64,000 bases of DNA from Candidatus Endomicrobium neocapritermitis (GTDB lineage: Bacteria > Elusimicrobiota > Endomicrobiia > Endomicrobiales > Endomicrobiaceae): the NCBI GenBank assembly GCA_009778325.1, contig WRJZ01000054.1, forward strand, positions 62,001 through 126,000, written 5' to 3'. Positions 11,068-64,000 of the stretch are shown in pieces; position 1 is the first letter of the stretch; the number at the start of each line of letters is the position of its first letter. The translations under genes were made by a program, and so were the position numbers. The notes beneath the pieces were generated by a model. It saw only the letters and a program-made list of their open reading frames with translations. It was not told the origin of the DNA and made no database searches.

Positions 11068-11190
11068 AAAAAAGGCGACCTGTATATGCGGTTAGAGATC
11101 CACAAACAGGTCGCCCCGGGATTCGTATGCCGTCCGAAAACGGCATACTACTCCCTCAATTGAAGGCGACTATGGTCCTCTAACCGTGTT
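11068..11190 (-). ncRNA. Structured RNA with pseudoknotted intrinsic terminator (copy 1)
   Basis: Read on the minus strand, the order is: strand CGGTTAGAG (11186-11178); hairpin GTATGCCGT/ACGGCATAC (11148-11125, loop TTTCGG); GGCGACCTGT (11115-11106); CTCTAACCG (11097-11089); ACAGGTCGCC (11083-11074); then TTTTTT. The GC-rich helix plus T tract is an intrinsic terminator, and its loop pairs perfectly (9 bp) with the 5' strand as a pseudoknot. A -10-like TGTATAAT lies upstream at about 11312-11319 on the same strand. Copy 2 at 24492-24600 has the same architecture with different bases. Function is unknown. It lies upstream of the 81-aa zinc-ribbon gene. Confidence 0.7.
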
Positions 11191-11426
11191 TGTATTCTAC
11201 AAACTACAAACAGATAAAGGTTTTAACCTTTAACCAAAGCAATATTAAGTTTTTTATTAAGCATTTTTCAATGCGTTTTCGGCGTTTCTCCTATTCCAAA
11301 TTTTATGCTGATATTATACAAAAATATTTTTTAAAATTTCTGCAAGTTTGAAAGAATTGAATCCGCATAAATTAAAAGTTAAAATGTGTACAAATAAATT
11401 ATATTATTGGTACCGGAGCATAGTAC

Positions 11427-12497
11427 ATGAGCAGACGATTTGAAAACCCTAAAAAACAGGTTATGACTATTCCCATATCTCAACCAAGGTATATCCCTGA
11501 ATTTTATTTAGCGCTTTTATTATGTCTCTATGATAAAGGCAGCATCCAATATGCAGATGATTCTGCAAAGAAGTTATGTAGCGACGACGAATTTGCAAAA
11601 TGGCTTTCTAATAATCCACGTTATAAAAAATGTATACGCATCGAGAAAGGCATAGAAGTAATTGCGAGAAACACTGATTCTGACCTATTCACTCCTGAAA
11701 TATTTGCAAGAACCAAAATACAAGTTACCGATAAAAAGTTCTTAGAAAAACTCCTGAAAGAACATGTGCAGCTTTTTGAAGAAGATAAATTACCAATGGA
11801 CTACGATTGCTATGGCAAAAATATTGATGAATGCGTTAAAATATGGCAACCGAAGTATGATGCTCGTGCCGGAATTGTATCTATAGCGATTTCTTCTTTT
11901 GAAACTCCCGATTTAAGAGAATGCGACACGTTGCTATCTTTGTTCTTCCAAGGAGATTTGGTTAAATTTTTATCTGCAAAAAGAAGAATTCAACCCGGAT
12001 GTAGCCGTGAGAGAATTATTCAAGAAGTTGTTTTTAAGGTTAAATTTCTAAAATCTCCAGAGGATATAAGAGATGATATTATAAATCCTTGTAAGTTTAT
12101 TGAATACAAATACTTAAAGATTAATGAAAATACTTTTGAGGTTTTTTATAAAGGCGTTTCTGTTAAGACAGGCGAGAGACCAAGTCCAAAAGATTTTAAA
12201 GTAATGAAATATCTTATGAAGCATAAGTTGCCTGTGGATATAGATAAAGTTTATAGAGAGGTTGAAGAAACAAAAAAATCTTTGCCCGAAAATAACCGCT
12301 GGGGTAATAACCGCGTCGGGGCAATCAATAACTTTCTTGGAATGACTGGAGCAACTAAAGCAATCAGAGAACGCAAAAAAGGTTATTTCTTCTCGGCAAA
12401 AGGCGGAGTATTTGACATAATTTTGCAAGAAAATAAAAATGTAAAAAAAGATGTCAACAGAAAAGTTAAAAAAACTCCCGGAAAACAAAAATCATAA
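11427..12497 (+). CDS. Hypothetical 356-aa mobile-element protein
   Basis: A mostly soluble, charged protein with a lysine-rich C-terminus (KKDVNRKVKKTPGKQKS). Residues about 245-330 contain a helical segment with basic residues (FKVMKYLMKHKLPVD...RKKGYFF) that could be a winged-helix or other DNA-binding fold. I recognise no family. It follows a TATA-rich region with a GTACCGGAG ribosome site and is closed by a strong terminator. It lies between the structured RNA and the replication/integration module. Confidence 0.5.
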   Translation: MSRRFENPKKQVMTIPISQPRYIPEFYLALLLCLYDKGSIQYADDSAKKLCSDDEFAKWLSNNPRYKKCIRIEKGIEVIARNTDSDLFTPEIFARTKIQVTDKKFLEKLLKEHVQLFEEDKLPMDYDCYGKNIDECVKIWQPKYDARAGIVSIAISSFETPDLRECDTLLSLFFQGDLVKFLSAKRRIQPGCSRERIIQEVVFKVKFLKSPEDIRDDIINPCKFIEYKYLKINENTFEVFYKGVSVKTGERPSPKDFKVMKYLMKHKLPVDIDKVYREVEETKKSLPENNRWGNNRVGAINNFLGMTGATKAIRERKKGYFFSAKGGVFDIILQENKNVKKDVNRKVKKTPGKQKS

Positions 12498-12537
12498 AAC
12501 ATATTGAAAAATCATAGCATACTAACAATTATATAAA

Positions 12538-12585
12538 AACCGCTGAAAAGAATAATTATAACTTTTCAGCGGTTGCTTTATTTTT
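12538..12585 (+). terminator. Rho-independent terminator
   Basis: AACCGCTGAAAAG pairs perfectly with CTTTTCAGCGGTT around an 11-base loop and is followed by GCTTTATTTTT. It ends transcription of the 356-aa gene. The remaining 12590-12760 stretch is AT-rich with no ORF and probably holds the promoter of the replication gene. Confidence 0.85.
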
Positions 12586-12762
12586 GGCATATAAACTTTG
12601 TGTTTCTCATCAATAACTCTGATTTTTTGAAACCAAATCTACCTACGAAGTTGCCACGATTATTCTTTTTCTATTCTTTTTTATTCCCAATCATATGTAA
12701 ATTTCCAATAAACGCCTAATCGCTATTCTTTCTCAACTCTTTTCTGCCCTTAGAATGTAGGT

Positions 12763-14250
12763 ATGAAAGACAAAATTCTCAAGTTACCAACAGCAACGCT
12801 TGAAGAAATTGAAGAAGCCCGGCAGACGACGCAATCTCTATGTCCGGACAATTCAGAAGTGTTAGAGATAGATACAATCGCCTTTGACATTCCGGAAGGA
12901 CGGTATGAAATAACGAAACCTATTTTGTTTCGCCCGGCAATAGAAACATTGGATGGTAGGATTGATTGGGACGATATAAAATACCCCAGAAATATTTACT
13001 ACAAACAGAACAAAGACGTATATTTACCTATGGTGTATGCTTGGCTAAACACAACCGTCTCACCGAGAACAAAGGTTCTGCGGGTGCAATGCTCATTTGC
13101 CAAACTTATGCACGGCGATAATCTAATTTCTACTTCGGAAGATACTATACCGGCATTTCGTAAAAGAATGCAAAAGATTTTAGCAATAATGGGCGTGAAC
13201 ACGACGGATTATGCGATAAACGAAGCAATACTTACAAGGCTTCATCCTGCACATAATATGCTAACCGATTACCCCGTAAGTATGATGACAGAAGACCTTG
13301 CTTGCTCCATAGTCCCAAGAAGTATGGACTTACAAGAAAGAACTTTTAGAAATGGCGGGGACATACTGTATTACCACAACGAGATTAGGGAACTCGTTTT
13401 TTACGATAAGGGCAAAGATATTGAAAGATTAGAAAACCGCCCCAAAAGCGCAATATGCGAGGATAAATACCCTGAAAATTATGACAAATACAAGGAATAT
13501 CTTAAAGACAAAAATGTTCCAAGAATGGAGTATAGGTTAAACGACAAAGAGGACATAAAAAACCATATTATTAAGGTTAGCAAGAAAAGCGAGCGTAAAA
13601 AATACGAGGACGGCGTAAAAGTTAAACATCTCAACGGGAAACTATTACAAGCCATTTTATTATACAGGCTTAAAAAAGTCAAAGAAAACATATTTGCTCT
13701 GCCAGCTTACAGACGCTCAATAGATGAATATATTTGGGATATAAAAAGAAATAATCCCGACCTTAGTAATACGGAAATAGATAACAGGCTTCCGGCGGTA
13801 CAAATGTTAGCAGAGAAAGGCTATAAGAAAACGCTTGCCTTTTTAAGAAGCTATTTAGGAGATGAAAGCAAAGCACAAAGGAAAATAGACGAAGCCAAAG
13901 CGTTAAAAGTTAAAGGACATCGCCCCGACTATATAGAAGAAATTGAGAATAGTTTAAAAACGTATAAACCGTTAACGCTGGAAGATTTGGCAGCCGAAAC
14001 GAATACCCCAAAGATAAAGCGTATTAAAGCAGACATGTTTGACTTCTTAACCGTGGAAGATGCGGCGCAAAAACTGCGTTGCAATGAAAGAACAATCCTG
14101 CGTTATATCGGCAAAGGGTTTTTGACTGCCTATAAACTCGGCAACGGATACCGCATAAGACCGCAAGACCTGCAAGATTTTATCATTAGCAGGAAAGTCG
14201 GGACAATCGGACAGCAATCCGGAAGTGAGGGAAAATGCCCGATAACATAA
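12763..14250 (+). CDS. Probable gpII-type (phage/plasmid CRI) replication initiator with C-terminal HTH
   Basis: In the 495-aa protein the region LRVQCSFAKLMHGDNL...ILAIMGV (about residues 106-148), IVRSMDL-like segment, YYHNEIRELVFYDKGKDIERL and PRMEYRL recall the replication proteins of filamentous phages and related plasmids (Phage_CRI/gpII family, HUH nicking enzymes). Residues about 430-480 form a MerR/excisionase-type helix-turn-helix (FLTVEDAAQKLRCNERTILRYI). This would make it an initiator fused to a DNA-binding domain. The family call is from memory of motif order, not a search. The 3' end overlaps the next gene by 16 bases, tying it to the excision/integration module. Confidence 0.55.
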   Translation: MKDKILKLPTATLEEIEEARQTTQSLCPDNSEVLEIDTIAFDIPEGRYEITKPILFRPAIETLDGRIDWDDIKYPRNIYYKQNKDVYLPMVYAWLNTTVSPRTKVLRVQCSFAKLMHGDNLISTSEDTIPAFRKRMQKILAIMGVNTTDYAINEAILTRLHPAHNMLTDYPVSMMTEDLACSIVPRSMDLQERTFRNGGDILYYHNEIRELVFYDKGKDIERLENRPKSAICEDKYPENYDKYKEYLKDKNVPRMEYRLNDKEDIKNHIIKVSKKSERKKYEDGVKVKHLNGKLLQAILLYRLKKVKENIFALPAYRRSIDEYIWDIKRNNPDLSNTEIDNRLPAVQMLAEKGYKKTLAFLRSYLGDESKAQRKIDEAKALKVKGHRPDYIEEIENSLKTYKPLTLEDLAAETNTPKIKRIKADMFDFLTVEDAAQKLRCNERTILRYIGKGFLTAYKLGNGYRIRPQDLQDFIISRKVGTIGQQSGSEGKCPIT

Positions 14251-14552
14251 CCCTTACCACCGAATTGCAAGCAATTATTGAACGGACTGCTCAACAGGCT
14301 GCCGCCGAGGCTGTATCTAAATACAAAAAAGAGGTGAAGCCTAAAAGGACGAACAGAGCGTATCTAAGCATAAAGGAATTTGCCGAGCATTTCGGTATGA
14401 AGAAGCAGACAGTATCTAAACTCATTAAAGAACGCAAGATTCACGCGATAATGCCGCTTGGGACAACAATGTGGAGAATCCCCATAAGCGAAATTGAGAA
14501 TTACGAGAAGAAAAGCAGAATTCAGACGCAAAAGGACATCTTCACTTATTAG
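14235..14552 (+). CDS. HTH excisionase-like protein
   Basis: The 105-aa protein contains a helix_turn_helix_17/Xis-type domain, YLSIKEFAEHFGMKKQTVSK followed by LIKERKIHAIMPLGTTMWRIP (about residues 38-85), the usual form of small recombination directionality factors. It overlaps the upstream initiator gene by 16 bases and lies 13 bases before the integrase, the normal place for an excisionase. It could alternatively be an element repressor. Confidence 0.75.
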   Translation: MPDNITLTTELQAIIERTAQQAAAEAVSKYKKEVKPKRTNRAYLSIKEFAEHFGMKKQTVSKLIKERKIHAIMPLGTTMWRIPISEIENYEKKSRIQTQKDIFTY

Positions 14553-14565
14553 GAGGAAATGATAT

Positions 14566-15678
14566 ATGGCATCATTAAAGAAAAGAAGCAAGCGCTACTA
14601 TATAAGAGACTACGAAAAAAAACCAAAACTTGATGCAAAAGGATTTCCGGTAAGAGACGCCGCAGGAAACATTATCTATAAACGCGTCGATTTATGGATT
14701 AAGTCGTCAAAAGACTTTGAGACTGCAAATAGGCATCTTCGCAAATACGAAGACAACAAAGACAGAGAAAGAATAGGGCTTGAAAAGAAACATATCTCTT
14801 GGCAGGATATCAAAGCAAAATATCTTGCCTATTCTGATGAATATAAAGCTGACGCAAGCCTTGATTTAGATACGCGGGTATTTAAGGACATAGAAGAGTT
14901 TTGCCCGTCGATTTCGCAGATTTCGGACTTAGATATATCGTTCGGCGAGAGATTTTTTCACTGGCTTAGAAACAATAAAAAGAACGCTGACGCCACTATC
15001 AGGCGGAAAGGGACTACGCTTAAAAATCTCGGCAAGAAATTTGTTGACTGGGGAATGATGCACTCCAATCCGCTCAAAAACCTCCGTATTCCCAAAGTAA
15101 CCAATGAGAAAGAAGTAAAATACTGGAAGACTCCGGAAGATATTCAAAAGGTTATAGATAACTCAATCGGAACGTGGAAGACGATAAACATGGTAGGCTT
15201 CTGCATTGGTGCGAGGCTCTCGGAAATTCTTAGCCTGACATGGGGAAGTTTTGATTTCAACACCGACATATACAAGATACAGTCCACTGGGGATTTCCGC
15301 ACGAAAAGTCGAAAACCCAGATTAGGTAAAATTCCAGCAGTTCTAAAAGAGTATTTACTGGCTTTGCGGAAAGAGAACGCGAAAAATGATAAGATTAAGA
15401 CGGACAAAATCGTAGTATATCAAGACGGTACTGTGCCTACAATGGATACCTGCTCTTCCTATTTGCGTAAGTTTTATGGTAAAATAGGTTTCAAAGGTTA
15501 TCATGCGCATTGTCTAAGACACACTTTCGCGGCGCACTATCTCTTGAAGTCTAAGGATATTTACGGACTGTCGAAGCTGCTCGGGCATTACAAGGTTACG
15601 GTAACGCAAGATTATTACGCGCATCTTTTAGACACTTATTTTGACAGTTCTATGACAAACTTTAACCCGTTTGAGTAA
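14566..15678 (+). CDS. Tyrosine recombinase / integrase
   Basis: The 370-aa phage-type integrase has the catalytic arginine in GARLSEILSLTW (about residues 216-227), HCLRHTFA (His and second Arg, about 316-323), LGHYK, and the nucleophile tyrosine in VTQDYYAHLL (about 346-350). The N-terminal part has an AP2-like/SAM-like arm region. A strong AGGAGG lies 9-14 bases before the start. Its gene lies 146 bases from the right attachment core, which matches the 3' end of tRNA-Ser(GGA), so this enzyme most likely integrated the 11.7-kb element. Confidence 0.93.
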   Translation: MASLKKRSKRYYIRDYEKKPKLDAKGFPVRDAAGNIIYKRVDLWIKSSKDFETANRHLRKYEDNKDRERIGLEKKHISWQDIKAKYLAYSDEYKADASLDLDTRVFKDIEEFCPSISQISDLDISFGERFFHWLRNNKKNADATIRRKGTTLKNLGKKFVDWGMMHSNPLKNLRIPKVTNEKEVKYWKTPEDIQKVIDNSIGTWKTINMVGFCIGARLSEILSLTWGSFDFNTDIYKIQSTGDFRTKSRKPRLGKIPAVLKEYLLALRKENAKNDKIKTDKIVVYQDGTVPTMDTCSSYLRKFYGKIGFKGYHAHCLRHTFAAHYLLKSKDIYGLSKLLGHYKVTVTQDYYAHLLDTYFDSSMTNFNPFE

Positions 15679-15823
15679 AGCGAAGTTTCTCACCAGTTTC
15701 TCACACGGTTTGCGGCTTAGTTGTCAAGGTTGTCAGTATTAGTATTTGAAAAATTGCCATACGTTGACGGAGAAGAGCGGAAACGTTGAAAAATCAATGA
15801 GAAGTTAGGGTATAGTATGCTAT

Positions 15824-15837
15824 TCCCTCTCTCTCCG
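15824..15837. repeat. attR core of the tRNA-Ser integrated element
   Basis: TCCCTCTCTCTCCG is an exact copy of the tRNA-Ser 3' end at 4119-4132. The stretch 15679-15823 holds the probable integrase arm sites, and 15838-16088 has no ORF but contains a palindrome at 16007-16031. Confidence 0.85.
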
Positions 15838-16006
15838 TATCAAACCGTTCTCCGTTGACAAAATGCCGTTTTTTACAAAAGTGTCGTCGAAATTTTTTGA
15901 GTTAGTGAGCCTGAGAGCGCCATTTAAAGAACAAATCAGCCAATCTTGCCAAAAACAAACTTTCCATTCTCTGCTTGCAGTTTTTTAGGATCCCTTTCAT
16001 TGTTAA

Positions 16007-56825: not shown

Positions 56826-56972
56826 ATTAAGAAGCTGAGAAGCTGAGAAGTTGAGAGGTTGAGAAGTTGGGCAAAGGCTATTCCCCTTTATTTATAAAGG
56901 GGTGGCCGCAAAGCGGACGTGGTATTTGCTTTTGCTCAGCTTCCCAGCTTCTCAGCATCCCAACTTCTATCA
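56826..56972. repeat. Intergenic stem-loop repeat, 'GAGAAGCTG' dialect
   Basis: AAGCTGAGAAGCTGAGAAG then TTGAGAGGTTGAGAAGTTGG faces GCTCAGCTTCCCAGCTTCTC and CATCCCAACTTCT. The loop includes CCCCTTTATTTATAAAGGGG, a small hairpin of its own. It separates glmS from guaA. Confidence 0.75.
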
Positions 56973-56983
56973 AGGGAGATAAT

Positions 56984-57949
56984 ATGTCAAATCTCAAAGG
57001 AACGATTGAAAAGTTCATAGAGGAATCTTGTGAAAACATCAAAGCGGAAGCCGCCGGACGTCCTGTTCTGTGCGCGCTTTCCGGCGGAGTTGATTCAGCC
57101 GTATGCGCCGTGCTTGCCCACCGCGCAGTAGGTGATAAACTTACCTGTCTGTTTGTTGACACGGGACTGATGCGTAAAAACGAAGGGGATCAGGTAACGG
57201 CGCTGTTTCGCGGCACATACGCGATAAACTTAATACGCGTTGACGCCGAAGAACGGTTTTTATCAAAGCTTAAAGGCGTAACCGAACCGGAGAGCAAGCG
57301 TAAAATTATCGGCGAGGAATTTATCCGCGTTTTCGAAGAGGAAGCAAAAAAACTCGGCAAAACGGGCTGCCTTGTGCAAGGGACTATTTACCCCGATATC
57401 ATAGAGAGCGGAGCGGACGGACATAAACAGGTAAAAGCGCATCATAATGTGGGCGGCATGCCGCTGAATATTGAATTTGAGGCGGTGATTGAGCCTATAA
57501 AGATGCTGTATAAAGAAGAAGTCCGCGAATGCGCAAGGAAACTTGGTTTGCCGGCATCTTTTGCAAATCGTCAGCCTTTTCCTGGGCCCGGTCTGGCAGT
57601 GCGCTGCCTGGGCGAGCTGACAAAATCCAAGCTTGACCTTTTGCGCGACGCGGACGCTATTTTCCGGGAAGAAATAGAAAAAGCGGGACTGCAAAAAGAA
57701 ATACAGCAGTATTTTGCCATTTTGCCCGGCGTTCAAAGCGTCGGCGTGCGAAACAATGAGCGGTGTTACGAGGAGACAATAGCGTTACGAGCCATATCCA
57801 CAAAGGATTTTGTTACCGCCGGTTCCGCGCGTCTGCCGTATGAGCTGCTTGAAACGGCGGCAAGACGGATAACTAACGAAGTAAAAGGCGTTAACAGAGT
57901 GGTGCTGGATATAACTCCGAAACCGCCGGCCACGATAGAGTGGGAATAA
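56984..57949 (+). CDS. guaA: GMP synthase, ATP-pyrophosphatase subunit without glutaminase domain
   Basis: The 321-aa protein comprises only the PPase and dimerisation parts of GMP synthase: PP-loop [14 protein letters not shown] (about 31-44), GQ-like segment [20 protein letters not shown], and C-terminal FPGPGLAVR and [13 protein letters not shown]. Standard bacterial GuaA carries an N-terminal class I glutaminase (about 200 aa), which is missing. So the enzyme uses free ammonia or a separate glutaminase subunit as in archaea. GGGAGATAAT fixes the start. Confidence 0.93.
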
Positions 57950-57960
57950 ACGGGAGATGT

Positions 57961-58085
57961 TAAAAGAGTGAAGAGTGAGGAGCGGAGAGTGAAGATACGG
58001 CAAAGATTTTTTACCGTCATTGCGAAGACAGCAGTTTTTGGTTGTATCTTCACTCTTCACTTTCCACTTTTCACTCTGCCGTTAA
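57961..58085. repeat. Intergenic stem-loop repeat, 'GAGTGAAGA' dialect
   Basis: AAAAGAGTGAAGAGTGAGGA and GCGGAGAGTGAAGATAC pair with GTATCTTCACTCTTCACTTT and CCACTTTTCACTCT. It ends CTGCCGTTAAAAAGGAAT, giving the ribosome site of the DUF1846 gene. The inner loop differs from the copy at 441-553. Confidence 0.8.
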
Positions 58086-58098
58086 AAAGGAATCTCTA

Positions 58099-59583
58099 AT
58101 GAAAACCGGTTTTGACAATTCCTCTTATATGGAAAAACAGACGGAGCAGATACTTAAAAGAGCCGAGCAGTTTAACCATAAATTGTATCTTGAATTCGGC
58201 GGCAAGCTTTTTGACGATTACCATGCGGCAAGAGTTTTGCCGGGATTTAACGTAAACGGCAAAATTTTGCTTTTGGAAAAATTAAAAGAGAAAACCGAAA
58301 TTATTATATGCATCAATGCGGCTGATATCGAGAGAAATAAAATAAGAGCCGATTTGGGAATCACTTACGATACGGATGTTTTACGCCTCATCGATAACGT
58401 CAGAAAGATGGGACTTTACATAAGCAGCATTGTTATTACGCGATATAACGGACAGCCTTCTGCGGATATGTTTAAAAATAAACTTGAACGCAGAGGCGAA
58501 AAGGTGTATATTCATAAGCCGATTATAGGTTATCCGACAAACATTGAAACTATTGTAAGCGATAAAGGATACGGAGCAAATCCGTATATAGAAACTACAA
58601 AACCGCTTGTAGTAGTTACGGCGCCCGGTCCGGGAAGCGGAAAAATGGGGACTTGTCTTTCCCAGATATATCACGAGCATAAAAAAAATATCAAAGCTGG
58701 TTATGCTAAGTTCGAAACGTTTCCCGTATGGAATTTACCTTTAAATCACCCGGTAAATCTTGCTTACGAAGCGGCTACCGCGGATTTGAACGACATTAAC
58801 GCGATCGACCCGTTTCATTTGGAAACGTACGGCAAAACGGCCGTGAATTATAACAGAGATATCGAAGTATTTCCGATTGTAAAAAACATACTTACAAAAA
58901 TTATGAAAAGAGAGCATGTTTATAAGTCGCCTACGGACATGGGAGTAAACATGGCGGGATATTGCATTGCCGACGACGACTTGGTAAGAGAAGCGGCCAA
59001 ACAGGAAATTGTAAGAAGGTATTTTATAACATGCTGCAGTTATAAAGAAGGAAGAGCGGAAACCGGCGCGATTGAAAAAATAGAAATTATAATGAAGCAG
59101 CTCGGCATATCCCAGGAATACGGATTGGCGGTAAAGCCCGCGTTGGAAAAATCAAAACAAAACGAATGCCCGGCTATGGCTTTGATTTTAAACGACGGAA
59201 GCATTATGACCGGAAAAACTACAAACGTTTTAACCGCGGCTTCAAGCCTTGTGTTAAACTGCGTTAAAAAATCAGCGGGTATTCCCGACGATATTCATCT
59301 TATTTCGCCCGCCGTTTTAGAACCCATGCTGATGCTTAAAGAAAAAATTTTGCAGGATAAAAACCCTTTATTGAGCCTTGAAGAAGTATTAAACGCTTTG
59401 AGCATATGCGCCGCGACAAATCCTTTGGCTGAAAAGAGTCTTTTAAAACTTCATGATTTACAGGGATGCGTAGCCCACAGCTCGCACATGATATCAAAAG
59501 CGGATGAAAACGCGCTTAAAAAATTAGGAATAAATGTTACGTGCACTCCCGAATTCCCTTCGGACGATTTATATTATGTTTAG
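58099..59583 (+). CDS. DUF1846 family protein
   Basis: The 494-aa protein is a DUF1846 member: KLYLEFGGKLFDDYHAARVLPGF, VIVTRYNGQPSA-like, TAPGPGSGKMGTCLSQIYHE (glycine-rich loop), FPVWNLPLNHPVNLAYEAATADL, and HSSHMISKADE. The family is widespread in fermenters; structures resemble nucleotide-dependent enzymes, but its reaction is unknown. AAAAAGGAATCTCTA gives the start. Its TAG stop is formed together with the end of a fold-back element. Confidence 0.88.
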   Translation: MKTGFDNSSYMEKQTEQILKRAEQFNHKLYLEFGGKLFDDYHAARVLPGFNVNGKILLLEKLKEKTEIIICINAADIERNKIRADLGITYDTDVLRLIDNVRKMGLYISSIVITRYNGQPSADMFKNKLERRGEKVYIHKPIIGYPTNIETIVSDKGYGANPYIETTKPLVVVTAPGPGSGKMGTCLSQIYHEHKKNIKAGYAKFETFPVWNLPLNHPVNLAYEAATADLNDINAIDPFHLETYGKTAVNYNRDIEVFPIVKNILTKIMKREHVYKSPTDMGVNMAGYCIADDDLVREAAKQEIVRRYFITCCSYKEGRAETGAIEKIEIIMKQLGISQEYGLAVKPALEKSKQNECPAMALILNDGSIMTGKTTNVLTAASSLVLNCVKKSAGIPDDIHLISPAVLEPMLMLKEKILQDKNPLLSLEEVLNALSICAATNPLAEKSLLKLHDLQGCVAHSSHMISKADENALKKLGINVTCTPEFPSDDLYYV

Positions 59584-59852
59584 AGTGTGTTCACACATAT
59601 TACGCACATGCGTTTGGTCAAAACAAGTCCAAATGCTAGGCGCGGTGACGAAGCAATAGCGAGACTATTGATAGGAGCCGCAACATCGCAGTTGGGCTTG
59701 TTTTGGCCAAACCCGAAGGGCTGCGGCAGCTTTTTGGTAAATTTTCCTTTTTTTGCTTCGCAGATACGTCTCTGTATCTTTGGCGCAAAAAAAGTAAAAT
59801 TTCCTCAAAAATCTTAGCAGCGCATGCGCGTAATATGTGTGAACACACTCTA
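59581..59852. mobile_element. TA-flanked fold-back element, copy 3 (272 nt)
   Basis: The ends are TAGAGTGTGTTCACACATAT.. and ..ATATGTGTGAACACACTCTA. They differ from copies 1 and 2 at several positions, and each change is matched on the other arm. The second internal helix reads TTTTTTTGC/GCAAAAAAA instead of AACTTTTTTA/TAAAAAAGTT. The conserved centre (GGCGCGGTGACGAAGCAATA) is kept. The element lies between the DUF1846 stop and the hisH-like ribosome site. Confidence 0.8.
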
Positions 59853-59862
59853 GAGGTTATAT

Positions 59863-60471
59863 ATGATAAGCATTATAGATTATAAAGCCGGAAACGCGCC
59901 AAGCGTACTGCACGCGGTCAATCATCTCGGATACGAGGCTGTCCTTGCCCGTTATCCGGGCGATATCTCACGCGCCACGCATATTATTTTGCCTGGAGTA
60001 GGCAGCGCAAAAGCGACGATGGAATCTCTGCGCGAAATGGGTTTGATATCGGAATTGGAAAACGCGGTTTTGCAAAAAAAGATTCTGTTTCTGGGTATTT
60101 GCGTGGGTATGCAAATCCTTTTTGAGCATAGCGAGGAAGAAAATGCGGATTGCCTCGGATGGCTTAAAGGACAGGTTGTAAAATTTGACGCTTCAAAAAT
60201 CAGGGTTCCGCAAATGGGCTGGAATAATGTGAATCTTACAAAAACTCCGGTTTGCGAATCCCTCAATGAGTTTTTTTATTTCGTAAATTCCTATTACGCA
60301 AAGCCCAAAAATGAGTCAGACATATGGGGTTTAGCGGATTACGGCGGGCCGTTTGCGGCTGCAGTTCGCAAAGACAATATTTACGCGACCCAGTTTCATA
60401 TAGAAAAAAGCGGCATTGCGGGACTTAACTTGTTAAACGGTTTTCTAAGCTTAAAGAACGGGGTAAGATAA
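59863..60471 (+). CDS. HisH-like glutaminase
   Basis: The 202-aa class I glutaminase has the catalytic triad Cys in LFLGICVGMQ (about residue 80) and His/Glu in YATQFHIEKSG (about 183-185). It delivers ammonia to the synthase partner encoded next, whose start overlaps its stop (TAATG). In the usual pathway this pair makes imidazole-glycerol phosphate. No other his gene is present here, so a HisH2/HisF2-type side pathway is equally possible. Confidence 0.85.
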   Translation: MISIIDYKAGNAPSVLHAVNHLGYEAVLARYPGDISRATHIILPGVGSAKATMESLREMGLISELENAVLQKKILFLGICVGMQILFEHSEEENADCLGWLKGQVVKFDASKIRVPQMGWNNVNLTKTPVCESLNEFFYFVNSYYAKPKNESDIWGLADYGGPFAAAVRKDNIYATQFHIEKSGIAGLNLLNGFLSLKNGVR

Positions 60472-61253
60472 TGCTGACAAAACGGCTGATAGCATGCTTT
60501 GACATTATAAACGGAATGGTAACAAAAGCGGTGCGGTTTCAGGATAATATAAACATCGCTCCGGCGGAGGAATTAGCCGGAACCATGTACGACGTGCAAA
60601 TTGACGAGCTGATCTTTTACGATATTACTGCAAGCGCCGAAAAGCGCAGGATTGATATTGAAACCGTGAAAAAAGTAGCGCGGCGCGTCTTTATTCCTTT
60701 TACGGTCGGAGGAGGAATCAAAAATTTGGAAGATATGTATGAAGCTCTTAAAGCGGGAGCTGAAAAAATAAGCATTGATTCCATGGCTGTCAGAAACCCT
60801 AAAATTATTTCAGACGGCGCGAGAGCCTTCGGCTCGCAATGCATTGTATTGTCCACTCAGGTAAAAATGTCAAAACAAATGCCCAGCGGATATGAAGTCT
60901 ATATAGACGGCGCCAGAGTTGCAACCGGCATGGACGCTATCGAATGGATAAAGCGCGCTCAGGAACTCGGCGCAGGAGAAATATGCCTAAACAGCATTGA
61001 CAATGACGGCACTCTTTCCGGCTACGACCTTGAATTAATGAAGCTGGCGGAAGCTGCAGTATCTGTTCCTCTTATAGCTTCCGGAGGGGCAGGAACTCCC
61101 GAACATCTGAAAGAATTGTTTACGGATACGGATGCTCAGGCAGCTATAATAAGCAGTATGTTATACTCTCCGAGAATGGCAAAAAATTATACTGTCAACG
61201 AGCTTAAAAAATATATGATGCAAAACGGCATAAACGCGCGGCCGCTGAAATGA
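60471..61253 (+). CDS. HisF-like (beta/alpha)8 protein, second catalytic Asp replaced
   Basis: The 260-aa barrel protein retains the first active-site aspartate (ACFDIINGMVTKAVRF, Asp 11 by HisF numbering, with Lys 19) and FTVGGGIKNLEDM, LNSIDNDGTLSGYDLE and PLIASGGAGTPEHL. Where HisF has VxxIDA (Asp 130) it reads IVLSTQVKM. That points to a HisF2-like enzyme as known from amidation steps in surface-sugar pathways, or to a changed reaction. Overlaps hisH-like by one base. Confidence 0.82.
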   Translation: MLTKRLIACFDIINGMVTKAVRFQDNINIAPAEELAGTMYDVQIDELIFYDITASAEKRRIDIETVKKVARRVFIPFTVGGGIKNLEDMYEALKAGAEKISIDSMAVRNPKIISDGARAFGSQCIVLSTQVKMSKQMPSGYEVYIDGARVATGMDAIEWIKRAQELGAGEICLNSIDNDGTLSGYDLELMKLAEAAVSVPLIASGGAGTPEHLKELFTDTDAQAAIISSMLYSPRMAKNYTVNELKKYMMQNGINARPLK

Positions 61254-61371: not shown

Positions 61372-61869
61372 ATGGAATATGAAATAGAAATTTTGCCTAA
61401 AAAAGGTTTTACGGATTTGCACGGCGCGCGCGTTTTAAGCGACATAATGCAGGCCGGAATTAAGGATGTAAAAAAAACAGGCTATTCGCCCGTATACGCA
61501 ATAGACGGCATAACCAAAGCTGAAGCGGATTTAATAGGCTGGGAGATTTTAAGCGATAAAATTACCGAAACTTTTTTTATAACTGAAAGTTCAACAACAG
61601 CAAAGGATCGCGGCTGTAAGGAACTATCTTCCGGCGGAGAAAAAGTGCATGCCATAGAAGTTTGGTTTAAAAAAGGCGTGACCGATACAGTTTCTGAAAG
61701 CGTTGTAAAAGCCATTAAAGATTTAGGCATAACCAAAGAAGTTAAAGTAAAAACAGGGCATATTTATTATATTTACGGAGCTGTCGGCAAACAGGTTTTA
61801 GAAAAAATCGCAACTACGGTTTTGGCAAATACTTTAATTCAGGATTATAAAATAAATGAACTGCGTTAA
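61372..61869 (+). CDS. purS: Tandem PurS-domain subunit of FGAM synthase
   Basis: The 165-aa protein contains two PurS-like halves (about residues 1-72, EYEIEILPKKGFTDLHGARV; about 92-162, HAIEVWFKKGVTDTVSESVV). Normal PurS has about 80 aa and works as a dimer that bridges PurL and PurQ, so this fusion supplies two copies in one chain. TAAAAAGGAGAAGTAA gives the start. The purL start lies within its last codons (14-base overlap). Confidence 0.85.
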   Translation: MEYEIEILPKKGFTDLHGARVLSDIMQAGIKDVKKTGYSPVYAIDGITKAEADLIGWEILSDKITETFFITESSTTAKDRGCKELSSGGEKVHAIEVWFKKGVTDTVSESVVKAIKDLGITKEVKVKTGHIYYIYGAVGKQVLEKIATTVLANTLIQDYKINELR

Positions 61870-64000
61870 TATTGAAATTTTAAAACTTAATGACAAAGAG
61901 CTTATAAATCTGAGCAAAAAAAATACGCTTTCTTTAAACCTCAAAGAAATGAAAGCCGTGAAAAGCTATTTCAAAAAATTAAAACGCGACCCGACCGACG
62001 TTGAAATTGAAACTATCGCCCAAACGTGGAGCGAGCACTGCAAACATAAAACTTTAACTGGCGTTATAAACTATAGCGGCGCGGATTCAAAAGGCAAAAA
62101 AGTAAATATTACATATAAAAACCTGCTTAAAGAAACAATTTTTAAAGCTACGGCGGAACTTAACAAAAAATGGTGCTTATCCGTTTTTAAAGATAATGCC
62201 GGCGTCATAGAATTTGATAAACTCAACGGAATCGCCTTTAAAGTTGAAACGCATAATCACCCTTCGGCGCTGGAGCCTTACGGCGGCGCGGCAACAGGCG
62301 TCGGCGGCGTTATAAGGGATATTTTAGGCGTAGGCCTTGGCGCCAAACCTTTAGCCAATACCGACGTGTTTTGTTTCGGAAATCCCGATACGCCCGCAAA
62401 AAAAGTGCCTGATGGCATGCACCACCCGAAGCGCATCGCGAAAGGCGTTGTCGCCGGAGTACGCGACTACGGCAACCGTATGGGCATACCAACGGTTAAC
62501 GGCGGCGTTCATTTTGACGACGGATATATGGCTAACCCGTTAATTTACTGCGGCACTATGGGTATAATGCCAAAAAGCGCGATAGAAAAAAAAGTGAAAT
62601 CCGGAGATTTTGTCGTCGTTGCCGGCGGACGCACGGGCCGCGACGGAATACACGGTGCGACTTTTTCATCGGCGGAACTCGACAAAGAATCAGATGTTTC
62701 CGCCGTACAAATCGGCAACCCCATAGTAGAAAAAAAAGTATTGGACACAATGCTTAAAGCGCGCGACTTAAAACTTTACCGCGCGGTTACCGACTGCGGC
62801 GCGGGCGGGCTTTCAAGCGCCTGCGGGGAATTGGGCGAAAGTACGGGCGTACGCATAGAACTTGAGAAAGTACCTTTAAAATATCAGGGATTAGCCCCTT
62901 GGGAAATTTGGATCAGCGAAGCTCAGGAAAGAATGGTTTTTGCAGTTCCGCCTAAAAACGTAAAAAAACTTTTAAATTTGTTTGACTGCGAAAATGTTGA
63001 AGCTACCGTTATAGGCAGATTCACTAACGATAAAAAACTGACGCTTGCTTATAACGGCAAAACAGTCGGACAACTTGATATGGACTTTTTGCATAAAGGC
63101 GTGCCTAAAACCGCGGCATTTGCTAGATACGCACCGCTGAAAGAAACATTGCGAAAACCCGTAAAGTTTAACGGTACAAGAATTAGAGAAAGCCTGAAGA
63201 AAGTTTTAGCGGATTCGGCGGTATGTTCCAAAGAACAAATTATCCGCCAGTACGACCACGAAGTGCAGGGACAAACGATAGTTAAGCCTTTGCAAGGGTG
63301 CGCAATAAATATTTGGGGGCCGGGCGACGCTGCGGTAATTTGGCCTTATGCCGTAATAAAAAACACCAAAAAGGGTATTGTGCTTTCTAACGGAATTAAT
63401 CATCAGTACGGTAAAGCCGACACTTACAAAATGACTGCATCTGCCATAGAAGAAGCTTTGAGAAACGCGGTTGCCGTCGGCGCTAATCCCGACAGGATTA
63501 GCGTACTTGATAATTTCTGCTGGGGAAACCCAGAAAAACCGGAAGTTTTGGGTTCTTTGGTACGTGCGGCGCAGGCTTGCTATGATATGTCCAAAAAATT
63601 CGGCGTACCTTTTATAAGCGGTAAAGACAGCTTGTATAACGAATATACTATCCGCGGAAAAACTTTTTCCATACCGCCCGCGCTCTTAATTTCCGCCATG
63701 GGCGTAATTGACAACGTTGAAAACACAATGACAATGAACTTTAAACGCGCCGGCAACCTCATAATGCTCTTAGGCATAACCCGCAATGAGCTTGGGCAAA
63801 GCGTGTTTAACAGAATAAACAAAATTTCAGGCGGCATTGCGCCGAACGTCTATCCCGAAGAATCTTTAAAAATTATGCGCGGTATTTACAAAGCGGCTAA
63901 TGCAGGTTTAATAGAAGCCTGCCACGACATAAGCGAAGGCGGATTAGCCGCCGCCGTAAGTGAAATGGCGTTTGCGGGCAGCCTCGGCGCAATAGTAAAA
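61856..64000 (+). CDS. purL: FGAM synthase, PurL (cut by window end)
   Basis: At least 715 residues are visible, with no stop before 64000. Motifs: TWSEHCKHKTL, FKVETHNHPSALEPYGGAATGVGG, RDILGVGLGAKP, VPTVNGGVHFD-like IPTVNGG, AGGRTGRDGIHGATFSSAEL, ITDCGAGGLSSACGE-like AVTDCGAGG and FISGKDS. It converts FGAR to FGAM. The start at 61856 has no strong ribosome site and depends on coupling to the purS gene it overlaps. Whether the glutaminase (PurQ) is fused or separate lies beyond the window. Confidence 0.95.
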   Translation, partial: MNCVNIEILKLNDKELINLSKKNTLSLNLKEMKAVKSYFKKLKRDPTDVEIETIAQTWSEHCKHKTLTGVINYSGADSKGKKVNITYKNLLKETIFKATAELNKKWCLSVFKDNAGVIEFDKLNGIAFKVETHNHPSALEPYGGAATGVGGVIRDILGVGLGAKPLANTDVFCFGNPDTPAKKVPDGMHHPKRIAKGVVAGVRDYGNRMGIPTVNGGVHFDDGYMANPLIYCGTMGIMPKSAIEKKVKSGDFVVVAGGRTGRDGIHGATFSSAELDKESDVSAVQIGNPIVEKKVLDTMLKARDLKLYRAVTDCGAGGLSSACGELGESTGVRIELEKVPLKYQGLAPWEIWISEAQERMVFAVPPKNVKKLLNLFDCENVEATVIGRFTNDKKLTLAYNGKTVGQLDMDFLHKGVPKTAAFARYAPLKETLRKPVKFNGTRIRESLKKVLADSAVCSKEQIIRQYDHEVQGQTIVKPLQGCAINIWGPGDAAVIWPYAVIKNTKKGIVLSNGINHQYGKADTYKMTASAIEEALRNAVAVGANPDRISVLDNFCWGNPEKPEVLGSLVRAAQACYDMSKKFGVPFISGKDSLYNEYTIRGKTFSIPPALLISAMGVIDNVENTMTMNFKRAGNLIMLLGITRNELGQSVFNRINKISGGIAPNVYPEESLKIMRGIYKAANAGLIEACHDISEGGLAAAVSEMAFAGSLGAIVK

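Follow-up and report, generated by a model that had tools for sequence, protein, structure and literature searches.

A horizontally spreading hisH-hisF pair with an exchanged active-site carboxylate, probably an alternative imidazole-glycerol-phosphate synthase

In the genome of Candidatus Endomicrobium neocapritermitis I found a second, divergent HisF/HisH pair, which is probably a mobile, alternative form of imidazole-glycerol-phosphate synthase (IGPS), with one catalytic carboxylate relocated, and able to displace the canonical HisH and sometimes also the canonical HisF of its hosts. HisF serves as a textbook case for the evolution of barrels, for allostery and for the tunnelling of ammonia, and its catalytic pair, Asp11 and Asp130, is considered fixed. 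If the IGPS reading is true, the pair is nature's own direct test of how far a catalytic residue can shift, and it ties a step of histidine and purine metabolism to the nitrogen-assimilation gene clusters of gut anaerobes.

The gene pair and its family

The window, by which I mean the whole analysed stretch of 64,000 nucleotides, belongs to the source genome G000 (2.38 Mb in 54 contigs, reported as 100% complete with 4.37% contamination). The two proteins of the pair are called variant HisH and variant HisF throughout. The relevant features are:

56867..57949, plus strand: guaA, ATP-pyrophosphatase and dimerisation part only, without glutaminase domain; start probably at 56984
58042..59583, plus strand: DUF1846 gene, upstream of the variant hisH; true start probably near 58087
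59570..59863, no strand assigned: palindromic insertion of 294 bp with 43-nt terminal inverted repeats (88%)
59863..60471, plus strand: variant hisH, a full-length HisH-like glutaminase with the triad Cys80/His179/Glu181 intact
60471..61253, plus strand: variant hisF, a complete HisF-like barrel of 260 aa with Gln130, Asp103, Ala20 and a rewritten loop 1
60777..60779, plus strand: Asp103 codon of the variant hisF (Asn in 53/53 canonical HisF), the proposed relocated catalytic carboxylate
60858..60860, plus strand: Gln130 codon of the variant hisF (Asp in 53/53 sampled canonical HisF)
60882..60890, plus strand: Pro-Ser-Gly insertion after beta5 of the variant hisF (Pro in 24/28, Ser in 28/28, Gly in 28/28)
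61155..61193, plus strand: segment SMLYSPRMxxNYT after beta8 of the variant hisF, including a family-specific insertion
61372..61869, plus strand: purS, 165 aa, in which the Pfam PurS match covers residues 95-161 only
61856..64000, plus strand: purL, extending past the window end, with purQ next on the contig

The stop codon of the variant hisH and the start of the variant hisF overlap by one base. The pair lies between the DUF1846 gene and purS/purL, outside any his operon, just as described in an earlier note made from the sequence alone. The glutaminase partner, which that note had called complete, scores 201.4 bits against TIGR01855 (cut-off 105.4), and Cys80, His179 and Glu181 are all present. 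The order guaA-DUF1846-hisH-hisF-purS-purL-purQ is common to the window and the sister genome G050, in which ddh precedes purS and the gap between DUF1846 and hisH is only 9 bp; the palindromic element, which in the window sits exactly between these two genes, is absent there. A missing PurQ is ruled out, as purQ is present downstream of purL. The PurS of the window is about twice the usual length, and a second, diverged copy may make up its N-terminal half. G000 has three GuaA genes, namely the window copy, C36:2771-3694 and C47:35330-36262; the GuaA frames besides the window copy comprise a full-length one of 506 aa and an odd one of 421 aa.

The variant HisF matches Pfam His_biosynth with 214 bits, above the cut-off, and scores 287.6 bits against the NCBIfam HisF model TIGR00735, for which the cut-off is 294.55, so that it is nearest to HisF yet just outside the curated family. 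Scoring of the family members in host genomes put a single one, that of G360, above this cut-off (295.7). A close relative is found in one of the 82 other genomes of the order (G050, same genus, 88%; next best matches 48%), and nothing else in the phylum (340 genomes) is above 49% identity. A scan of a genome collection gave 80 loci, of which 27, including the contig of G050 (L104), show 68-88% identity over the best segment, after which none exceeds 47%; as the two search patterns limit what such a scan can find, the number of 27 is a lower bound. Six phyla are represented, with Endomicrobia, Treponema, Fibrobacterota, many Bacillota, Synergistaceae and a Coriobacteriia bin.

I aligned the 28 family members (the window and the 27) with 53 canonical HisF that the scan had also returned. 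The family members come out as a single clade (SH-aLRT 100) in a quick maximum-likelihood tree. The stem of this clade is long, at 1.78 changes per column, its inner branches are short, and hosts of different phyla are interleaved in it; the sister group of the clade is unsure, since the tree program warned of long branches. The phylogenetic placement that the earlier note had proposed as a check thus puts the variant outside all sampled canonical HisF, and its view of the pair as a second one is borne out by canonical hisA and hisF on a separate contig (C50) of G000. The pair spreads horizontally between phyla. Between the two Endomicrobia (G000 and G050), dN/dS is 0.08 for the variant hisF and 0.10 for the variant hisH, which indicates purifying selection and rules out decay.

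A plasmid search yielded an extra pair in Streptomyces sp. NBC_01462 (58% to the window, 64% to locus L124), whose HisF likewise has Asp103/Gln130, the Pro-Ser-Gly insertion and SLLYSPRM. On this plasmid (L324 14342-24910) the pair is accompanied by a degenerate HisA-like gene, two phosphoribosyltransferases, a HAD hydrolase and an aminotransferase, and the region could possibly be a nucleoside-type biosynthetic cluster. A viral vehicle was rejected, as the best of 40 viral loci reached 43% identity and none was close. In nine island loci, no known RNA element was found at the gathering threshold. Literature searches, judged mostly at listing level, gave no publication recognisably on this family.

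The active site and the closest known systems

The replacement of Asp130 claimed in the earlier note is confirmed by alignment to solved HisF chains, where IVLSTQVK stands opposite VVVAIDA-K and position 130 becomes Gln, and the first Asp (Asp11) and Lys19 are kept as it had stated. Its description of the phosphate loops as intact holds for GGG 80-82, GGAG 205-208 and S229, whereas changes are found at Asn103, where beta4 ends, and in the residues that follow beta8. Beyond what it had listed, Asn103 is Asp, Gly20 is Ala, loop 1 is remodelled and two insertions are present.

These changes are uniform in the family. Gln130 occurs in 28/28 variant HisF versus Asp130 in 53/53 canonical HisF, and Asp103 in 28/28 versus Asn103 in 53/53, so that the combination, a reciprocal exchange, is found in 28/28 and 0/53, respectively. 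With the dN/dS of 0.08, such consistency makes the loss of Asp130 more than chance. The same complete separation (28/28 vs. 53/53) is observed at position 20 (Ala vs. Gly), 98 (Glu vs. Asp), 8 (Ala vs. Pro), 10 (Phe vs. Leu), 18 (Thr vs. Val) and 148 (Ala vs. Gly). Asp11 is kept in 28/28 members, as are R5, E46, K99, Q123 and E170 (equivalent to 167). I take R5, E46, K99 and E167 to be the gate residues of Thermotoga maritima HisF, and D98 and Q123 are presumably positions at its HisH interface; a literature search on the role of Q123 found nothing.

The AlphaFold2 model of the variant HisF (pLDDT 93.3, pTM 0.91) is a HisF barrel, and the 50 PDB matches listed for it are all HisF or HisF-derived designs (TM 0.83-0.90 by query length). 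With the last residue of beta4 at 102 and beta5 covering 125-133 in this model, positions 103 and 130 would lie on adjacent strands, each towards the end that faces the active site. The catalytic acid and base of T. maritima HisF are D11 and D130, and D130 is reported as essential, according to the available portions of two papers (PMC11350729, PMC5919458); the exchange of Asn103/Asp130 for Asp103/Gln130 may hence be read as a relocation of the second carboxylate. The first of these sources, again in the portion available, gives a drop in kcat from 2.4 to 0.022 per second, or about 100-fold, for the T. maritima variant G20A (PMC11350729). With Ala20 fixed in the family, loop closure would also have to work differently.

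A lone HisF variant in Desulfosporosinus and in a Chitinispirillia bin (L267 3068-3829; L233 99-908) has Ser103 and the Pro-Ser-Gly insertion, with Asp130 kept.

With canonical IGPS (HisH TIGR01855, HisF TIGR00735), the pair shares the fold, the adjacent glutaminase, Asp11, Lys19, the gate positions, the phosphate loops, and a HisH above the family cut-off, in hosts that all lack canonical HisH. It differs in a HisF score below the cut-off, Gln130/Asp103, Ala20, the new loop 1, the two insertions, a neighbourhood of nitrogen genes instead of a his operon, and its position in one separate clade. WbuZ (TIGR03572) and AglZ/HisF2 (NF038364) are also second HisF/HisH pairs outside his operons. However, the variant HisF scores 231.2 against the WbuZ cut-off of 299.7 and 193.0 against the HisF2 cut-off of 310, and four sequences from the same order that resemble WbuZ have other places in the tree. 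Cut-offs and tree thus rule out a HisF2/WbuZ identity, a relationship that the earlier note had wanted examined, and no sugar-amidation (WbpG/PseA-like) gene was seen in the flanks of the loci read. The laboratory variant HisF D130V+D176V (PDB 4ewn, rCdRP-bound) likewise has no aspartate at position 130, but in the natural variant described here the counterpart of D176 (in IDxDG) is still aspartate, and position 103 is Asp.

Losses of histidine genes in the hosts

I searched G000, 26 further host genomes and two same-genus controls (G049 and G052) with TIGR01855. In 27/27 hosts every match above the cut-off is the variant HisH beside the variant HisF, with two pairs in G346 and a HisH in two pieces in G358, and canonical HisH is absent; both controls have a canonical hisH. 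Alignment to G049, where the order is hisB-hisH-hisA-hisF-hisI, shows that in G000 hisH is missing between hisB and hisA, and that about 125 bp of repeat-rich DNA is found instead; in G050, hisA follows directly after hisB.

With TIGR00735, 14 of the 26 hosts have a further HisF and 12 have none besides the variant (G341, G342, G344, G345, G346, G349, G351, G352, G354, G355, G356 and G365). As most hosts are metagenome bins, gene absences, whether of HisH, HisF or other his genes, may be gaps. Including G000, another HisF is kept in 15/27 hosts, Herbinix hemicellulosilytica T3/55 being a strain with both HisF types. Among the 12 variant-only hosts, hisB is present in 9, hisD in 10 and hisG in 10, all three in 8 and at least one in 11; in G351 none of these three was found. 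The earlier note had reasoned that a histidine prototroph without any other hisF would make the variant the normal enzyme. This does not apply to G000 itself, but relatives come near to it, most clearly two Treponema genomes (G341 and G352), which have hisG, hisB, a hisA-hisIE fusion, hisC and hisD, and lack both hisH and hisF of the canonical type. Fused HisA-HisIE proteins are encoded at L216 3268-4635 and L224 7585-8892, in Treponema his clusters that contain no hisH and no hisF.

HisA was undetected in 13/27 hosts, that is in 10 of the 12 variant-only hosts and in 3 of the 15 others. G354 misses a 1.7-kb stretch of G352 that includes hisA-IE and the end of the neighbouring gene, so its lack of HisA may be an assembly fault, and the HisA-less genomes G344, G349, G355, G356 and G357 have broken contigs or miss other his markers. 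In the Fibrobacterota G342, G345 and G365 and the Lachnospiraceae genome G346, hisG, hisB and hisD are present, but HisA gives no signal; all that G346 shows is a HisIE to which a degenerate HisF-like half is fused. Such Lachnospiraceae HisIE with a degenerate N-terminal HisF-like half are located at L214 9889-11175 and L280 5336-6592, the former with no equivalent of Asp11 or Lys19 by eye. A Synergistaceae bin without canonical HisH has a HisA-HisF fusion (L276 5296-6750, 484 aa, two His_biosynth stretches).

In the variant-only hosts without HisA the pathway is not closed unless the pair or something else does the HisA step, so either the pathway is broken, or an isomerase goes unrecognised, or the variant HisF takes this step. 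A bifunctional variant HisF, doing both HisA isomerisation and HisF cyclisation with carboxylates at positions 11 and 103, would explain at once why HisH is always lost, HisF often, and HisA undetected in 10/12 variant-only hosts, but I consider it improbable.

The 15 further HisF, here called orphans, all keep D11, K19 and D130. Gln123, which is invariant in the 53 canonical and 28 variant sequences, is lost in 13/15 orphans versus 0/53 canonical HisF (Fisher p = 3e-12, relatedness ignored), and D98 is lost in 5/15, as expected if an orphan HisF no longer meets a HisH. The orphans of G000 and G050 group with Endomicrobia HisF in a quick tree, while several others are a related set of stand-alone genes away from his genes. 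In the two Endomicrobia the orphan hisF is under purifying selection (dN/dS 0.12-0.14). An ammonia-only HisF is plausible, as HisF by itself accepts ammonium in vitro (PMC11350729) and growth of Corynebacterium glutamicum is unaffected by deletion of hisH, which is dispensable there (PMC3896937), both according to the portions of these papers available. The orphans are thus naturally HisH-less enzymes on which an ammonia-only IGPS could be tested.

Gene neighbourhood and competing explanations

Variant HisH and HisF are adjacent in 27/27 loci, with the pair of L129 split by an insertion. A his gene within 4 kb is found in 0/27 of these loci versus 53/53 canonical ones, whereas at least one gene of glutamine or ammonia metabolism lies within this distance in 19/27 versus 0/53, a count favoured by the fact that the query genes were drawn from the family's own loci. 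The genes counted were glnA with ANTAR regulator, glnN, asnA, asnB, gdhA, guaA, pyrG, carB, purF/L/B, glmS, argG/H, dapL, ddh and DUF1846, with the names carB, pyrG, argG, argH and glmS assigned partly from reading sequences; gatA and carA are farther than 4 kb from the pair.

If a functional equivalent displaces the ordinary enzyme, one expects just this picture, with canonical HisH gone from every host, HisF gone from many, and the orphans eroded. The uniform active-site exchange implies that this equivalent works through a modified site. Judged from the sequences, the variant HisF probably does the ordinary IGPS job with a changed active site. The pair would move between phyla, usually within nitrogen-metabolism gene clusters. 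Glutamine would be hydrolysed by the variant HisH, and the ammonia would pass through the HisF barrel, as the kept gate residues suggest, to react with PRFAR to ImGP and AICAR, a reaction to which the gene losses point. Asp11 would stay as one catalytic acid/base, and Asp103 at the end of beta4 may take over the role of Asp130 on beta5, now Gln. Once acquired, the pair would make canonical HisH dispensable and HisF often too, and a surviving canonical HisF would become a HisH-less, presumably ammonia-only enzyme.

Several observations speak against this IGPS reading. D130 is essential and G20A harmful in T. maritima, as far as the available portions of the two papers go (PMC5919458, PMC11350729). 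None of the 27 loci has the his neighbour that all canonical ones have, 15/27 hosts keep another HisF, under purifying selection in G000 and G050, and G351 lacks hisB, hisD and hisG. The undetected HisA of 10/12 variant-only hosts and 3/15 others counts against it as well. The Streptomyces plasmid pair also argues against it, as this genus normally has canonical hisHF.

Alternatively, the pair may be a glutamine-dependent enzyme that binds a different substrate from nitrogen assimilation in the HisF barrel, with histidine being made by the ammonia-dependent orphan HisF. This substrate would be the new ammonia acceptor suggested in the earlier note. Uniformly rewritten active-site and loop-1 positions, the nitrogen-metabolism neighbours in 19/27 loci with never a his gene, and the phosphoribosyltransferase and HAD genes beside the Streptomyces plasmid pair would all fit, as would the other HisF of 15/27 hosts and the dispensability of HisH in C. 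glutamicum (PMC3896937, in the portion available). However, this leaves unexplained that canonical HisH is missing in 27/27 hosts, and that 12/26 hosts lack any other HisF, with other his genes kept in 11 of these 12. I therefore regard a new ammonia acceptor as a rival that is rather doubtful, though worth keeping in mind, and not as the best reading.

In another reading, the variant HisF would be a catalytically dead activator of HisH, and the ammonia would go to a separate acceptor, such as a nearby GuaA without glutaminase, in the way HisH2/HisF2 feed PP-loop enzymes of the WbpG type. GuaA and WbpG are both PP-loop enzymes, and a lone GuaA ATP-pyrophosphatase is located close upstream in 5/28 loci (L005, L104, L115, L116 and L118); a sixth locus (L123) has a full-length GuaA. 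However, the stretch read holds no GuaA in 22/28 loci, and GuaA is encoded twice more in G000, in one case by an open frame of 506 aa. Ammonia supply to the lone GuaA was rejected, with any GuaA in the stretch read at only 6/28 loci, and so was a loss of glutaminase in all neighbouring amidotransferases, as pyrG, carA and purLQ keep their glutaminase cysteine motifs and glmS its N-terminal Cys. Asp11, Lys19 and the phosphate loops would not be expected to persist in a dead scaffold, and the loss of HisH would have no explanation, which makes a dead activator quite unlikely.

That the variant HisH serves the surviving canonical HisF, with the variant HisF as an accessory or regulatory paralogue, is highly improbable: the variant HisH is indeed the only HisH in genomes where canonical HisF survives, but the orphans lost Gln123 in 13/15 and D98 in 5/15 while the variant HisF keeps Gln123 in 28/28, 12/26 hosts have no other HisF, and HisH stays beside the variant HisF in all 27 loci, although at one of these an insertion separates the two.

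At locus L005, positions 11136-15902 on the minus strand contain an open reading frame of 1588 aa, which, judged by eye, seems to join an exonuclease-like start to a RecQ-like and a UvrD-like helicase.
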